Assembly: GCA_016841045.1 (NCBI GenBank)
Contig: JAENZX010000015.1
Coordinates: forward strand, 1 to 64,000
Direction: 5' to 3'
From: Thermincola carboxydiphila
GTDB taxonomy: Bacteria > Bacillota > Thermincolia > Thermincolales > UBA2595
DNA: 64,000 nucleotides
Both the position numbers and the translations under genes were made by a program. Below are positions 893 through 46,505 of the stretch, piece by piece. Within the stretch, counting starts at the first letter, position 1; every line of letters starts with the position of its first letter. The notes under the pieces are model-generated. The model searched no databases. It was not told where the DNA came from and saw nothing but the letters and a program-made list of their open reading frames with translations.

Positions 893-1750
893 ATGGAGGA
901 ATATAGCAATAAACAGGAAGAAAACTATGCTAACAATCTAATTGAAGTTTATCAACGGGAAATGAAGCTCCGAAATTATAGTCAACGAACTATCAAAACT
1001 TATACCTCCCTGCTAAAGAATTTTTTGGATACCTTTTATCCTCAAGACCCTAGAAGTATTACAACTGATCAGATCAAAAAATACCTTTACGCAATAATAA
1101 ATAACAAAGGTCTAGGTTCTGCCTCAGTTGACCAGACCATTAACTCTCTAGTAATGTTATATAAACATCTATACAAACAACCATTTATTCTTGAAGAAAT
1201 TGCCCGACCCAGGTCAGAACGTCGCATTCCAATTGTCTTATCCAGGGAAGAAGTCATTAAAATATTTGATGTAACTGATAACCCCACTCACAAACTATTA
1301 CTTCAATTAATGTATTCCTCAGGACTGAGAGTATCCGAAGTAGTTAACCTAAGAGTACAGGATATTCAATTAGATAACCTGACACTGTTTGTTAGGGGTG
1401 GAAAAGGTCACAAGGACAGAATTACCGTATTTTCCCAAACTTTAAAACCTTCATTACTTAGATACATGTCAGGCAAAGAAGCTAAAGAACATCTTTTTAT
1501 GACTCAGAGAGGAGGAAAATATACAACCCGTACTCTACAGAAGGTTTTTGAGCAAGCAATTAAGAAAGCACATCTGCAAAAGTCAGCCTCCTGCCACACT
1601 CTGCGTCACTGTTTCGCTACACATCTACTAGAATCAGGCACAGATATCCGATATATTCAAAATCTTTTAGGCCATGCCAGCATAACAACAACCAACATTT
1701 ATACCAAGGTTCGCAATCCTCATCTCTTCAAAATAAAAAGCCCCCTCTAG
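893..1750 (+). CDS. Tyrosine recombinase (XerC/XerD-like integrase)
   Basis: Site-specific DNA recombinase of the tyrosine family. Residues 15-100 form the SAM-like core-binding domain and 115-275 the catalytic domain. The complete catalytic set is visible: R146 in SSGLRVSEV, K171 in GGKGHKDR, H235 and R238 in CHTLRHCFATHL, H261 in LLGHAS and the nucleophile Y270 in NIYTKV. The 285-residue length fits XerC/XerD or short integrases of the same fold. It is on the plus strand, unlike almost everything around it, has its own promoter and follows an inverted repeat, so it may be a mobile-element integrase or a solitary Xer-type resolvase rather than the chromosomal XerC/D pair. No att-type direct repeat is evident. 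The start has a GGGGGTG ribosome site. Confidence 0.9.
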   Translation: MEEYSNKQEENYANNLIEVYQREMKLRNYSQRTIKTYTSLLKNFLDTFYPQDPRSITTDQIKKYLYAIINNKGLGSASVDQTINSLVMLYKHLYKQPFILEEIARPRSERRIPIVLSREEVIKIFDVTDNPTHKLLLQLMYSSGLRVSEVVNLRVQDIQLDNLTLFVRGGKGHKDRITVFSQTLKPSLLRYMSGKEAKEHLFMTQRGGKYTTRTLQKVFEQAIKKAHLQKSASCHTLRHCFATHLLESGTDIRYIQNLLGHASITTTNIYTKVRNPHLFKIKSPL

Positions 1751-12268: not shown

Positions 12269-15220
<2,952 letters not shown>

Positions 15221-25720: not shown

Positions 25721-26548
25721 TTAACTTCAACAGGAAGAACTGTCTGAACTGGTCTGGCAGCATCCTCCAGCTTGAGTATCTGTATTTTCTTTTCTACGCT
25801 TACCTGCAAAGAATTTTTGAAGATTTTCAGGTACTTCTGTCCTTACTTCAGAATCTGCGTTTCCCCTGGTTCCCCCATATACTTCCCGCAAGATAGCATC
25901 AATGATCATACCTTTTGGCGGAGCGGTATATTCTTTGCCCTGATATGTCCAAATCCGGCAGTCAACACTGTCACCGCACAGGTCACCACAAGAATCACAT
26001 AGAGCTTCTTTGACCTCCAACTGAATATCCTGCCCATTTATTCTAATAGTTGGCGAACTTACAAAGCCTAAATTACGGGCTTGTTCTTCGGATTGAATAT
26101 GTATCTTTATAACATTCACTTCAACGCCGGTCGTCTTTAAAACCTGTGCCACTTCCGTTATGGCTTCATCCAGATTGGATTCTGTTGACTGACACCACTT
26201 ACAAACGCTCAGGTCAAGGTACATAAATTCTATGTCCAGATTTCTTCGTATCGATTGAGATTGTTCAATTTCTTTTTCCTTGGAAAGCGGTTGCATATAT
26301 TTTTGGATTTCCTGAAGTATATCTTCTTCCTTAGGTCGTTGGCTGCATGTGCCTTGATTTGAGTAAATCACACTACCATTTACGATCACCTGATAAATAC
26401 CGTTATGCCCTTCTTTTAGTTCCGCATTTATTCCAAACTTGTTTTTGATTGATGCCGCCAAACCGGAGGCTAAAGAAAGGAAGCCTCACTCAACACAATA
26501 GGTAATTTCAACATTTACATCTCTCGTTACATTACTTGAATCGCTCAT
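25721..26548 (-). CDS. Selenoprotein: SelW/Rdx-DUF2703 fusion
   Basis: A 275-residue fusion read through a TGA at 26486-26488. Residues 1-75 form a Rdx (SelW/SelT-like) domain, VEITYCVEUGFLSLASG, whose CxxU redox site puts U at residue 21; without recoding the frame has no credible start and loses half the redox motif. Residues about 85-240 form a DUF2703 domain with CKWCQ, a CDSCGDLCGDSVDCR cluster and PPKGMIIDAILREVYGG. The C-terminus is Cys-rich (GGCCQTSS...SSSC) and then meets a second TGA (25727-25729) followed by AGT TAA, which could give a terminal CUS. ATG at 26548 follows AGGGGGAT. It lies between the DUF2703 paralog and arsR-acr3. Likely a thiol/selenol protein handling arsenic; the first Sec is firm, the second tentative. 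Confidence 0.88.
26454..26470 (-). promoter_or_regulatory. SECIS candidate of Rdx-DUF2703 gene
   Basis: The hairpin GCCtCC-GGTTT-GGcGGC begins 15 bases after the TGA and presents a GG-starting loop about 21 bases from it, in the range for bacterial SECIS elements. Confidence 0.6.
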
Positions 26549-28306: not shown

Positions 28307-28327
28307 ACCTGTTTATCCTAAACAGGT
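28307..28327 (-). promoter_or_regulatory. Hairpin after third UGA of DUF5714 gene
   Basis: A perfect 9-base stem (ACCTGTTTA) with loop GGA starts 15 bases after the TGA at 28343-28345. No T run follows, which makes a terminator less likely and a SECIS possible. Confidence 0.45.
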
Positions 28328-28330
28328 TCT

Positions 28331-29476
28331 TTAATATTCCCCTCAGGTTTTACACTCACCAACCGGTGCTTCAATGTTTTGTTTTTCCGAATAGGGCTGC
28401 GGGGAATGTATTTTGTCAGCCAGGGCCTTCACCTTTGACGCCCCAACGGTCATGGCAATGGCAACGGCTTCGTTTAATTCGGCTTCAGGGATGTTAAGTT
28501 CCTTTGCAACTGCAAAGCAATATTGAGTTCATGGTTCACAACCGGCAGCCAATGAAGCAGCCAGGGCAATCAAATGCTTTGTCTTTCGGCCCAATATACC
28601 TTCCTGCCCATAGATGGATGAATGAAACTGGTCATATGCATTGAACATATTGTTTTCACCTCCTGCCGGAACAGATTCCTCTCTTTGTTTATAATAAGGA
28701 CACTTATCCATTCTGCACCCATGAGGATGACGCTCAACATGCATACAAACAGTTATTTTTCCAGGTAACGGCAGGGATACATTTAAGTAATCTTTGACCA
28801 ACTTAACCGACTCGTAGAGAGCAGTTCTGACAAAGTTTTTGCAGCAGCACGGACCTGTTTGATCTGCAATAGCATTTACTATTTTACCTACAACTCTCAT
28901 CGTAGCTGCTGTTTCCTGATTCTTGGGACATGCGGCACCTAAAATAACACTAAAGCAGGCTCCAATTGCCGGAGCCACTCCACAAACTCCTGTTAGTCCG
29001 CAGTAACCCCCAATCGCCTGTTTCCTTGTCCGATTAAACACTTCATCGATTTGTTCGTTTGATATTTTGATAGTTCCTTCATTTTTTATTGCAGCCATCA
29101 AAGCACCCGCAGCGATCCATGCATTTTCGCAGCCTAGCATGGGTACTTTGTCAATATAGCCCATAAGAGTTTCCGCAATCTCAAAAGGATTGCGTGACTC
29201 TGAATTTAAAACAAATCCCTTTATTGTATCGAAAACACCCTTACCATGACACTCATCACAAATATAATGACCATTGGGGCAACTAATATTAGCAAAGTCT
29301 GCTTTCCCACAGCGAAAACAAATAAGTTTTTTGCCGCTATCAAAATACTCCAGTTTAGTGCCACAGATTTGGCAGTCTTCTGTATTAATTTCTGTCTGAT
29401 GTTGACCAGCATCGTTACCAGGGCCTCAACAACCTGTCGGTTCAGCATCATCAAGGTTCTTTAACTCCTCAACCAC
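28331..29476 (-). CDS. Selenoprotein: Zn-ribbon/DUF5714/AhpD-like
   Basis: One gene spanning two or three in-frame TGA codons. From GTG at 29476 (AAGGTG upstream): U17 in PTGCUGP (TGA 29426-29428); a zinc-ribbon region EDCQICG, LICFRCG, CPNGHYICDECHG (about 29-75); a DUF5714 domain with GGYCGLTGVCG, GPCCCKNF and CRMDKCPYY; then an AhpD/carboxymuconolactone-decarboxylase-like domain HLIALAASLAAGCEPUTQYCFAV with U316 in a CxxU site (TGA 28529-28531), followed by AELNEAVAIAMTVGA. A third TGA (28343-28345) follows GECKT; reading it as Sec would give CKTUGEY and a TAA at 28331, otherwise the protein ends at 28343 with 377 residues. Read conventionally, this locus would be three meaningless fragments. 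Role: probably a peroxidase/disulfide-type redox enzyme for the cluster. Confidence 0.87.
28502..28517 (-). promoter_or_regulatory. SECIS candidate for U316
   Basis: CTTTGC-AGTT-GCAAAG hairpin, loop 17 bases after the TGA at 28529-28531, with G in the second loop position. Confidence 0.7.
29398..29413 (-). promoter_or_regulatory. SECIS candidate for U17
   Basis: Short stem GATG/CATC with loop CTGGTCAA begins 12 bases after the TGA at 29426-29428. The loop holds GGUC, as in the E. coli fdhF element, but the stem is short. Confidence 0.5.
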
Positions 29477-29600
29477 TTATTTCACCTTCTTTTATATACC
29501 CAACATAGGTATATGTTTTATCTAATTATATTAGACATACATGAAGTTTTCAATGGTGATTAACGTCCGCTAAGCCGCCAATTCTTTAGCCCCTTCATAT

Positions 29601-30129: not shown

Positions 30130-30146
30130 ATCCGTAAACTACGGAT
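30130..30146 (-). promoter_or_regulatory. Hairpin after terminal UGA of DUF2703 gene
   Basis: ATCCGTA-GTT-TACGGAT, a perfect 7-base stem, starts 13 bases after the TGA at 30160-30162; its G-first loop is 20 bases from the UGA. Only a weak T stretch follows, so SECIS is as plausible as terminator. Confidence 0.5.
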
Positions 30147-30153
30147 TATCTTG

Positions 30154-30963
30154 TCAGTTTCAACATGAGCCAGAATTGCCTTGGGAAGTGGAGGTGCTAA
30201 AGCGACTATTAACTTCTTTCAAATGTACATTTTCGTTGCGTTCTTTTGCTGCAAAAAACCTTTTAAGATTTTCTGGCACACCTTTCGTTTTAGAAGGAGT
30301 ATCGGCATTATCCTTAGAACCCACATATACTTCCCGTAAGATAGCATCAATGATCATACCCTTTGGCGGAGCATTATATTCCTTACCCTGATATGTCCAA
30401 AGCCGGCAGTCAACGTCCTCACCACAAAGATTACTGCATGACTCACAGGAGCTTCCTTTTACATCTAACTGAATGTCATTTTCGTTTATACGAATTGTAG
30501 GTGAAATTTCAAACCCGAGTTCGTAGGCCTGTTGCTCAGACTGAACTTGGATTTTCTTTACTGCTACATCGACCCCAGTTAACTTAAGAATATTGGCTGT
30601 TTCCGAAACTGCTTCATCCAAATTGGTTTCCGTGTCCTGACACCATTTGCAAATGCTTAGATCAAGGTATAGAAACTCAATTACCAGACTTCTTTTAGCT
30701 TCATTTGAGCAGCTCACTTTTTCTTTTATTTCCTCATCTTTCCCAATATCAAAATGTCTTTCATATGCCGCAAGCAGTCCTACCTTATATTCTTGTTCGG
30801 CACCTTCTGGAATATAATTTTTTCGTTCCACTATTTCGAACAATTTGTCTGCAGCTTTTCCACCCACTAAGTCAAGGCTCCTTACATACTGAAATGCCTC
30901 ATCTACTCTGGTCAACCCAATCACTTGGCCACCGACGTTTAGTTTATATATTTGGGGACTCAT
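30154..30963 (-). CDS. DUF2703 protein, candidate C-terminal Sec
   Basis: A protein of 267 residues up to a TGA at 30160-30162, or 269 if that codon is Sec (ending GSCUN before another TGA). Residues 1-75 (VIGLTRVDEAFQYVRSL ... GAEQEYKVGLLAAYE) match the whole 80-residue protein at 32.4-32.6 kb. Residues about 95-225 are DUF2703: LYLDLSICKWCQDTETNLDEA, SSCESCSNLCGEDVDCRLW and PPKGMIIDAILREVY, nearly identical in these blocks to the Rdx-DUF2703 protein. The terminal SC-TGA is shared with that paralog and is replaced by GCC in the short paralog. Part of the As/selenoprotein cluster; likely metalloid-thiol chemistry. Confidence 0.82.
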
Positions 30964-31258: not shown

Positions 31259-32275
31259 CTATCTCAAAACAAATGACCAGGCATTAAACAAATAACCGAT
31301 AATAATGATACCTACCGAAACTATAGCAGTAAAAATTGCTAGGAGTTTAGGCTTTACTACTTTACTAAGCAAAATTAGTGAAGGAAGCGATAACGCAGTA
31401 ACTGACATCATAAATTCTAATACAGTACCAATTCCCACATTCTTAGCAAATAATGCTTCTGCTATTGGTAAAGTTCCAAAGATATCTGCATACATTGGAA
31501 TACCCACGACAGTAGCAAGTATTATCGCAAACGGATTATTATCTCCAACCACATTTTCTATGATTGATTGAGGAATCCAATTGTGTATTACAGCTCCTAT
31601 TCCAACACCAATTAGAACATATAACCATACTCTTTTAATAATATCAATAACCTGGGTCTTTGAGTATGATATCCTTTCCTCACGTGTCATTTTAATAATT
31701 TCAGAATCAACATTTTCTATCTCTTTAACATAACCTTCCACATACTTTTCGAGGCCCAACTTATCAATAAGAGTTCCACCAATAACTGCTAAAACCAAAC
31801 CAACAACGACGTAAGCTATGGCTATTTTGGCTCCAAAGAAAGACATTAATAATAGTATTGATGCTAAATCTACAAGGGGGGAGGATATCAAAAACGAAAA
31901 AGTCACCCCTATCGGCAAGCCTGCCGATGTGAAACCGATAAATATCGGTATACTGGAGCAGCTTCAGAAAGGAGTAATAGTTCCTAATAAAGCTCCATAA
32001 ATATTTCCTTTGATACCCTTCATTCCACCAAGAATCTTCTTGGTTCTTTCAGGCGGGAAGTAACTTTGAATGTATGATATTAAAAAGATGAGCACCGATA
32101 ATAATATGAAAATCTTTATTGTATCATAGATAAAGAAATGAATACTTCCCCCCAGCTTCTCCTGGACGGATAAACCAAATACTCGCTCCACAACAAGTCT
32201 GACAGATTCTGAGAGCCATGTCATTCTTAAAATTTGATCATTCAGCCAACTGAAGATTTGAGTTACTATATTCAT
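31259..32275 (-). CDS. Selenoprotein permease, YraQ/DUF318-like
   Basis: A 338-residue permease read through a TGA at 31964-31966 (U104). The joined protein has about eight membrane helices. The junction reads GALLGTITPFUSCSSIPIFIGFTSAG, where the family normally has TPFCSCSSIP, so Sec takes the place of the first conserved Cys at the membrane-embedded motif; the second half carries the matching VVGIPMYADIFGTLPIAEALF. Split at the TGA, neither part would be functional and the second would lack a ribosome site. Related permeases export organoarsenicals or metals (ArsP-like). It has its own terminator and is preceded by an 80-residue gene on the same strand. Confidence 0.88.
31911..31949 (-). 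promoter_or_regulatory. Tandem hairpins after permease UGA
   Basis: Hairpin 1 (31934-31949, ACCGAT-ATTT-ATCGGT) is 14 bases from the TGA but lacks a G at the loop start. Hairpin 2 (31911-31928, ATCGGCA-GGCT-TGCCGAT) has a GG loop but lies 42 bases from the TGA. One of them, or both stacked, may serve as SECIS. Confidence 0.5.
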
Positions 32276-32357: not shown

Positions 32358-32606
32358 TTAACATCAGGATTTAGCTATAAAATTTTTATATGCCGCAAGC
32401 AGTGCTAATTTGTATTCTAGCTCTGCACCTGGTGGGATAAAATTTTTTTGCTTCACAATTTCTAATAGTTTTTCAGCAGCTTTTTCATCCCCTAAACCAA
32501 GGCCTTTAACAGCCTGAAAAGCCTCATCTACTCTGGTTAGCCCCACCTGTATGCCACCAGCCGTCAGCATATAAACCGGGTTTTTGGGGTCACAACATTG
32601 ACTCAT
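32358..32606 (-). CDS. 80-aa protein, N-domain of DUF2703 paralog
   Basis: An 80-residue protein up to a TGA at 32364-32366. It starts MSQCCDPKNPVYML with a vicinal CC and continues VGLTRVDEAFQAVKGLGL ... GAELEYKLALLAAYK, the same domain as the first 75 residues of the DUF2703 protein at 30154. If the TGA were Sec the protein would end KSUC at a TAA (32358); no clear hairpin supports this, so a plain stop at 32364 is equally or more likely. It lies between the CxxC mini-glutaredoxin and the permease. Function unknown. Confidence 0.75.
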
Positions 32607-33997: not shown

Positions 33998-34438
33998 CTA
34001 TTTGCCCTCCAACAATGCCTTTAATTTCGTGTTCATTTCTTCCTGGTTAATCACACCAACATAATTAAAGGTTGATTCACCTTTTGAGTTCAAAAAATAC
34101 GTAGTGGGAATATACTGAATCTGGTATTGAGCACATAACGCCTGATCAGCCGGGTCATTCACGTTTATATTAATAAATGCTACTTTCCCCTCAAATTTAG
34201 GTTTTAGCCACTGGAACACCCGTTCCATTTCTACACAGGACTGTCAGGTCGTGGAATGGAATAAGAGCCAAGCTGGCTGCCCCTTTTGTTTAGCCTGTTC
34301 GATTAAACCTGCAGCCTGGGAAACAGAACTGTTTGAAGAAAAATCTTGCTGGACATTTTCTGTTTTAACTCCTTTGGCGGCAATTAACGCAACCACCGCT
34401 GCAAGTAAAACCATCAACACTATTGCCTTTAACTTCAA
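33998..34438 (-). CDS. Selenoprotein thioredoxin-like, UxxC site
   Basis: A 146-residue membrane-anchored thioredoxin-fold protein read through a TGA at 34244-34246. Residues 4-21 are a signal anchor (AIVLMVLLAAVVALIAA). The active site is FHSTTUQSCVEME with U65 in the place of the first catalytic Cys; the second part has VAFININVNDPADQALC and the cis-Pro loop IQYIPTTYF. Both halves are needed for the fold, and the downstream piece alone has no signal or active site. TTG start with GGGGAGGG. A six-base stem with loop GGGT follows the UGA. It lies directly before ccdA, its likely electron partner. Confidence 0.93.
34212..34227 (-). promoter_or_regulatory. SECIS candidate of thioredoxin-like gene
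   Basis: TGGAAC-GGGT-GTTCCA hairpin; loop begins about 22 bases after the TGA with G first. This is the best SECIS match in the cluster. Confidence 0.75.
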
Positions 34439-42581: not shown

Positions 42582-42607
42582 ACAACTACTCCCTGTATAT
42601 AAAAATA

Positions 42608-42786
42608 AAACCCCACCTATGCCGTGAGGCCGCCTTGTTTGAACCTGTTCTCACAGGTGGGTGTTCACCCAAAAGTTTTTTGTGTCCTCAACTAATGGAG
42701 GCATACAAGCCACTATCGGAGATGAACTCCCTTAGTATTGGTGTTGGCTCAATACTAAACGGCCGCGCACGCGCATCGTAGGGTTG
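42608..42786 (-). ncRNA. ssrS: 6S RNA
   Basis: The two ends of this 179-base segment pair (AACCC...GCGGCC with GGCCGCC...GGGTT) and a large central open region is bounded by short helices (GTATTGAGCC/ GGTGTTGGCTCAATAC side and CACCCACCTGTGAG side), the plan of 6S RNA mimicking an open promoter. In Bacillus bsrA (6S-1) occupies this exact place between tcdA and aspS. It is on the same strand, followed by T-rich sequence. Confidence 0.85.
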
Positions 42787-42963
42787 TTTTTTATTGCTGA
42801 ATTGTAACTTTACTATACCATATAACTTTTCAACCTTTCAAGTGCCAATAATTACAGCATTTTCTTGTTACATCTAGTATCACAAATAACCGTTGTTTTT
42901 ATTCAGGTTATATTTAGCACTTCGTCTAGTTCCGTTCTTGACAACCCACGTATTTGTATTTAA

Positions 42964-46099: not shown

Positions 46100-46390
46100 G
46101 GCAAAAATAAAAACTCCCGTCTCTAACAATGTGTTACATTGCCAGGGACGAGAGAAAATCCCGCGGTGCCACCCTGCTTGGATGATTGTATTACAATATC
46201 ATCCCACTCAAACTTGTAACGGCAGTGTCCCGGGCTTCAAATCCTGTTCCGCCTCAAGATGGACGTTCCATTTCTCAAAAAGCCTGGCTCCAAGGTGTCT
46301 TCACCAATTCAATCCCTGGGGATGCTTTCAGTCTAGGACATCCCCTCCCTGATAGGTCTGATATTGTTACTACTCCTTTTCAAAGCCAAT
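46100..46390 (-). promoter_or_regulatory. T-box leader, His/Asp
   Basis: T-box core AGGGTGGCACCGCG lies at about 46161-46174 (minus strand) and a terminator hairpin CTCTCGTC/GACGGGAG at 46113-46154 with T run. In stem I the specifier loop shows GACACC (46294-46299), in which GAC (Asp) and CAC (His) overlap by shifting two bases. It controls hisS-aspS. Confidence 0.92.
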
Positions 46391-46505
46391 ATCAAAATAT
46401 GTTTTTTAGTTTAAACGTACAATATAAATTTTATCTAAACCGACACTGCTTGTCAATTGTTGTTTAATTTAGTTAGTAAGTTTAATCCATTAAACAGCAT
46501 AAAAC

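Follow-up and report, generated by a model that had tools for sequence, protein, structure and literature searches.

A predicted three-selenocysteine protein joining an MbdU-like front to an AhpD module in an arsenic-resistance island of Thermincola carboxydiphila

The 64,000-nucleotide stretch of Thermincola carboxydiphila DNA analysed here (the window) carries what appears, from its sequence, to be one selenoprotein gene with three conserved TGA codons and three associated hairpins. Judged by its modules, the predicted protein is a new combination within a known kind of selenoprotein, the MbdU type: a Zn-ribbon/DUF5714 front is joined to an AhpD domain and a Sec-containing tail. The features of the gene are as follows.

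28331..29476, minus strand: whole gene, 381 codons, with a GTG start at 29476, three in-frame TGA codons and a TAA stop at 28333-28331
29426..29428, minus strand: TGA 1, Sec17 (U17), motif CU, in a predicted flexible N-terminal arm
29398..29413, minus strand: bSECIS hairpin 1, GATGCT[GGTC]AACATC, loop 18 nt past TGA 1
29246..29374, minus strand: Zn-ribbon-like Cys/His region, CxxC..CxxC..C..H..CxxCH, residues 35-77
28691..29224, minus strand: DUF5714 domain, residues 85-262 (Pfam, 173.9 bits), making up the front half of MbdU together with the ribbon
28436..28648, minus strand: AhpD/CMD domain, residues 277-347 (Pfam CMD, 43.5 bits, over the cut-off)
28529..28531, minus strand: TGA 2, Sec316 (U316), motif CEPUTQYC, aligned with the second Cys of the AhpD CxxC
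28499..28520, minus strand: bSECIS hairpin 2, TTGCTTTGC[AGTT]GCAAAGGAA, loop 17 nt past TGA 2
28343..28354, minus strand: CKTU motif at the C-terminus, with TGA 3, Sec378 (U378), at 28345-28343
28307..28327, minus strand: bSECIS hairpin 3, ACCTGTTTA[GGA]TAAACAGGT, 3' of the stop codon, loop 24 nt past TGA 3

Three UGA codons and their hairpins

The earlier note had placed TGA codons at 29428, 28531 and 28345, in CU, CEPU and CKTU contexts, in one frame; this was confirmed, and the frame is open over 381 codons. The gene is present as a single copy in the genome. Counting the window gene, all four full-length homologues have TGA at all three Sec positions, which supports the proposal that Zn-ribbon, DUF5714 and AhpD form one gene with three Sec. 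The other three come from a MAG named Thermincola ferriacetica (L016, identical to L002), Desulfosporosinus sp. BG (L017, identical to L093) and a second Desulfosporosinus-family genome (L094). TGA 1 is kept in 45 of the 46 distinct homologues read. The sole loss of Sec17 among them is in a Pelotomaculum MbdU gene (L046:5001-5771), in which TCA (Ser) replaces TGA 1 and the hairpin is still intact. The third Sec, which had been considered doubtful, is now well supported because an ECKTU or NCKTU tail and its hairpin recur in relatives both with and without AhpD.

The hairpins were assessed as bSECIS elements by the presence of a G among the first two loop bases, 16-37 nt after the UGA. All three show this feature, with covariation or conservation at each, and all three lie where they had been put previously; the window copy of hairpin 1, however, has one C.A mismatch, adjoining the U-A pair that closes the GGUC loop. 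Its fold in the window is weak (-6.0 kcal/mol, above the -7.5 limit of the review cited below). Scored against the 2367 TGA triplets of the window, hairpin 2 ranks among the best 4% and hairpin 3 among the best 0.5%. Hairpin 1 failed this comparison as a stand-alone signal, being matched by half of the triplets, and was rescued by covariation only. Among 30 distinct homologous sequences, its pairing is present in 91% of cells and all six pairs vary at both positions, with 32 compensatory cells; almost every loop reads GGUC. The covariation score was reached by none of 500 shuffles and collapsed in slid versions.

Nowhere in the gene are synonymous sites more frozen than in the stretch that holds hairpin 2. 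Of the 11 codons following U316, nine are the same in three divergent homologues, compared with 46 of 197 such codons in other parts of the gene (Fisher p=1.3e-4). For hairpin 3, seven sequences keep the pattern CCTGTTT..GG..AAACAGG, allowing for G-U variants, and MbdU relatives with no AhpD domain are among them. It would represent a natural SECIS situated past the stop codon.

Synonymous sites are near saturation across the three lineages of full-length homologues. The pN/pS ratio in these homologues is about 0.25 upstream and downstream of U316 alike, and falls to 0.08-0.14 over the 35 codons directly 3' of U316. The similar ratios on both sides argue that the AhpD part is translated and under selection. 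The same genome encodes SelB (359.9 bits, over the cut-off in a profile search) and tRNA-Sec (73.9 bits, over the gathering score). SelB would thus be expected to decode the three UGA codons, each with its own hairpin, and all three are almost certainly read as Sec. Annotation pipelines will split the gene at its TGAs.

Modules shared with known selenoprotein families

Residues 15-284 match the NCBIfam model MbdU (metal-binding double selenoprotein, NF045648) with 413.5 bits over profile positions 7-288 of 468. The score lies below the curated cut-off of 600 bits because the profile continues into another domain, and the protein has an MbdU-like front rather than membership of the curated model. 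The CU arm, Zn-ribbon-like region and DUF5714 are common to both. A full-scoring MbdU member (L025, 789 bits) continues into DUF2284 with its own TGA/Sec, whereas the window protein lacks this DUF2284 back half with its second Sec and has instead the AhpD-CEPU and CKTU elements, giving three Sec. A 2026 selenoproteome review (PMC13188914) attributes the MbdU family to Haft and Tolstoy 2025. MbdU and MduS are both in its list, as are the two ArsM fusions, of which the ArsM-AhpD fusion is given three Sec.

The back half resembles other families. The AhpD domain and C-terminal tail align with MduS (methyltransferase domain selenoprotein, NF045649) through position 337 of 338 of its profile, by which the comparison was made; the front is a methyltransferase in MduS and Zn-ribbon/DUF5714 here. 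The score of 75.1 bits covers the back half only and, without the methyltransferase front, misses the cut-off of 380. No MduS protein over the cut-off was found in 397 genomes. The AhpD-Sec back half is also common to ArsM_AhpD_UU (arsenite methyltransferase/AhpD selenoprotein, NF041537), in which the front is ArsM and not DUF5714. The match (95.6 bits, profile 262-341 of 345) is confined to the AhpD part and, without the ArsM front, misses the cut-off of 510. That profile stops four positions past the match, apparently without the long linker or the CKTU tail found in the window protein.

A fourth family, ArsM_DUF2284_UU (NF041536), has no domain in common with the window protein but shares its DUF2284-Sec back half with MbdU, which indicates that back modules have been swapped between ArsM and DUF5714 fronts. 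As read from these profiles, all four pairings of an ArsM or DUF5714 front with a DUF2284-Sec or AhpD-Sec back occur; three are named families and the window protein fills the fourth, for which no NCBIfam 20.0 model scores above its cut-off. That all four occur suggests one common substrate or reaction. Few proteins combine three Sec with swappable modules, and the chemistry of such proteins lacks an explanation. The kinship to MbdU was not foreseen in the earlier note, nor were the optional nature of the AhpD module and the possible internal start described below.

Most MbdU homologues end past DUF5714 and lack AhpD, and some keep the CKTU tail with AhpD absent (L004, L005/L019 and L060). A tree built from the DUF5714 part puts the AhpD-bearing genes at two distinct positions and the tail-only genes beside the T. 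ferriacetica homologue (support 0.996). This distribution is consistent with an AhpD module that was lost, gained or transferred more than once. The AhpD-tail module was found in 2 of 398 genomes of the phylum and in 3 of 45 Desulfosporosinus-family genomes, one copy being degenerate. It was found in none of the viral contigs searched, and the plasmid search returned distant DUF5714 or AhpD relatives only. A planctomycete locus (L073:2658-5672) has radical SAM, methyltransferase and DUF5714 domains fused in one frame of 1005 residues.

C35, C38, C53, C56, C66, H70, C73, C76 and H77 of the Zn-ribbon-like region are invariant in 38 sequences, and C159, C165, C211, C212, C244 and C254 are further invariant residues. 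In the structure model the DUF5714 core is predicted with confidence and the AhpD domain with moderate confidence, while both Sec arms (residues 1-28 and 355-381) have pLDDT <50 and are predicted to be disordered. DUF5714 modelled alone reached a pLDDT of 89.7 and gave no significant PDB match with Foldseek. Its best structural alignments were weak, to PrpD, IRG1 and L-serine dehydratase (Z 4.8-5.7, 138-143 residues, rmsd 4.0-4.5). Profile support for an L-serine dehydratase alpha/PrpD-like fold was likewise weak (hhalign P=0.06), making this resemblance a lead only. DUF5714 was not mentioned in the literature searched. The AhpD part matches 3bey (Foldseek probability 1.00), 1vke and other AhpD folds.

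An internal start and the products of the gene

Two further features lie at the junction of DUF5714 and AhpD and downstream of it.

28657..28664, minus strand: internal Shine-Dalgarno-like AGGAGGTG, upstream of the in-frame ATG at 28648
28331..28648, minus strand: possible internally initiated AhpD-Sec protein of 105 aa with two Sec

Every ATG, GTG and TTG in the gene was scored for pairing of its upstream bases with the 16S anti-Shine-Dalgarno, giving 70-81 candidates per homologue in four homologues. The ATG at 28648 is the best of 81 sites in the window gene, with -15.7 kcal/mol compared with -10.5 at the GTG start. The start of the AhpD domain also ranks first in the T. ferriacetica homologue (ATG, -10.4 kcal/mol), in Desulfosporosinus sp. 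BG (ATG, -8.2) and in L094 (GTG, -9.0); the last two are close relatives, and the ranking represents three lineages, not four. The Pfam AhpD domain begins exactly at the Met of ATG 28648. A degenerate stand-alone AhpD-Sec copy with the motif GCKP-U-TSY, in a Desulfosporosinus-family genome (L095, about 1528-1720, minus strand), starts at the equivalent of this Met.

The conserved internal site, as read from these sequences, may be a functional start or a relic of fusion. It is possible, and we hold it tentatively, that one gene gives rise to two selenoproteins, the three-Sec fusion and a separate two-Sec AhpD-CKTU protein made from the conserved internal ribosome-binding site. If both are made, the gene would supply a protein that captures metal(loid)s along with the redox partner of that protein, the two having two SECIS elements in common.

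Two other accounts of the products were considered. In one, the main product is the short AhpD selenoprotein with two Sec, for which translation starts at 28648 from a separate ribosome-binding site, and the three-Sec fusion is minor. The internal site outscores that of the GTG start, its equivalent ranks first in the four homologues and the stand-alone relic begins at the same Met. Nevertheless, in all four homologues the frame runs from one part into the other with no intervening stop codon, where separate genes would be expected to have one, and we consider this account unlikely. The other takes the TGAs as real stops, so that the locus would consist of short ORFs or a decayed gene. That hairpin 1 is by itself no better than background is in its favour. 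It is contradicted by the conservation of TGA at three sites, the covariation of hairpin 1, the synonymous freeze, the purifying selection across U316 and the presence of SelB and tRNA-Sec, and its probability is very small indeed. The reading of the locus as one gene for a three-Sec fusion is retained below.

Genomic setting and possible function

By its neighbours, the gene is located in an arsenic-resistance island. Same-strand neighbours encode ACR3, two ArsR proteins, an Rdx-DUF2703 protein, two further DUF2703 proteins, SigZ, a DGC protein, an ArsP_1 permease, an ArsE-type thioredoxin-like protein, a CcdA-like protein and a thioredoxin. Upstream of the GTG start is a putative control region.

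29494..29553, minus strand: candidate promoter TTGAAA-17-TATAAT (29553-29525) followed by the inverted repeat ATATACC/GGTATAT (29494-29514), a near-consensus match only

ACR3/ArsR genes are also found near MbdU in L023 and L051. The arsenic link proposed earlier draws its support from gene neighbourhood only. Most MbdU homologues have unrelated neighbours and no arsenic genes within 5 kb, so the connection with arsenic may hold for this locus alone, or a soft metal other than arsenic may be the substrate.

We lean towards a protein that captures soft metal(loid)s, probably arsenic species, and handles them by redox chemistry. Counted for this reading were the profile matches to MbdU, MduS and ArsM_AhpD_UU, the arsenic-gene neighbours here and near MbdU in L023 and L051, the TGA-containing ArsR gene next to MbdU in Desulfosporosinus described below, the disordered Sec arms and the radical SAM/methyltransferase/DUF5714 fusion. 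The metal(loid) substrate, the relay described here and the use of the internal start are inferred. From N- to C-terminus, the predicted protein has a flexible CU arm, a Zn-ribbon/DUF5714 core rich in Cys, a modified form of AhpD in which CxxU is the reactive pair, and a second flexible arm with CKTU. Soft metal(loid)s, probably arsenic in trivalent or organic form, would be captured by the selenol/thiol arms, and these species or electrons might then move among the arms, the core and the CxxU site of AhpD, the protein acting as part of the island. By analogy, flexible selenol arms that feed the core and the CxxU site would recall the Cys arms of mercuric reductase and the Sec tail found at the C-terminus of mammalian thioredoxin reductase.

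A peroxidase role had been suggested before and is weakened by the present comparison. As a selenol peroxidase, the protein would reduce hydroperoxides at Sec316 of AhpD, with electrons given by the CU and CKTU arms and DUF5714 serving as a scaffold. The window protein shares with the AhpD/CMD fold (Pfam CMD; 3bey, 1vke, 5dik) both the fold and a CxxC-type motif, in which Sec takes the place of the second Cys, and thioredoxin-like and CcdA-like genes lie nearby. However, the Glu and His around the AhpD CxxC are absent; they align with His and Cys, respectively, in all four full-length homologues (CEPUTQYC), giving CxxU...C, and ordinary peroxidase activity is less likely as a result. Moreover, the CKTU tail persists in relatives without AhpD, so the arms would serve DUF5714 independently of AhpD. 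Overall, a peroxidase seems improbable. Methyl-group or organometal chemistry, which we rate slightly lower again, would have DUF5714 and a methyltransferase (ArsM-type or MetE-like) form or cleave a metal-carbon bond, with AhpD-Sec accepting or reducing the product. It is in keeping with the NCBIfam families in which AhpD-Sec and DUF2284-Sec back modules are fused to ArsM, the methyltransferase-DUF5714 fusion of the planctomycete and a MetE-like gene that follows MbdU in Desulfosporosinus sp. BG. Against it, no methyltransferase gene was identified adjoining the window gene, and nothing found ties DUF5714 to catalysis.

Several other genes with in-frame TGA codons were noted. In Desulfosporosinus (L017:4622-4942, and also L023, L028 and L094), the gene immediately 5' of MbdU belongs to the ArsR family and contains an in-frame TGA (..ASFxFY-U-I[TA]D..) followed by a conserved GGA-loop hairpin, making it a candidate Sec-containing ArsR regulator; the term 'ArsR' is absent from the 2026 review (PMC13188914). 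Within the window, all on the minus strand, the ArsP_1 permease gene (31259-32275) has a Pfam match of 222.5 bits spanning an in-frame TGA at TPF-U-SCSS; the permease is related to the SaoE and SO_0444 transporters and lies under both cut-offs. A SelW/Rdx-like domain with CVE-U is fused to DUF2703 and ends in SSC-U-S, forming a probable double-Sec protein (25724-26545). In a thioredoxin-like gene (33998-34438), UQSC replaces CxxC (TTUQSC). The genes at 30139-30963 and 32358-32606 have a small N-terminal domain in common, in one case fused to DUF2703, and their frames run past terminal TGAs (GSC-U-N-U.. and KS-U-C). Two T-box leaders and a 6S RNA are found at 14978-15197, 46141-46392 and 42606-42787, also on the minus strand.
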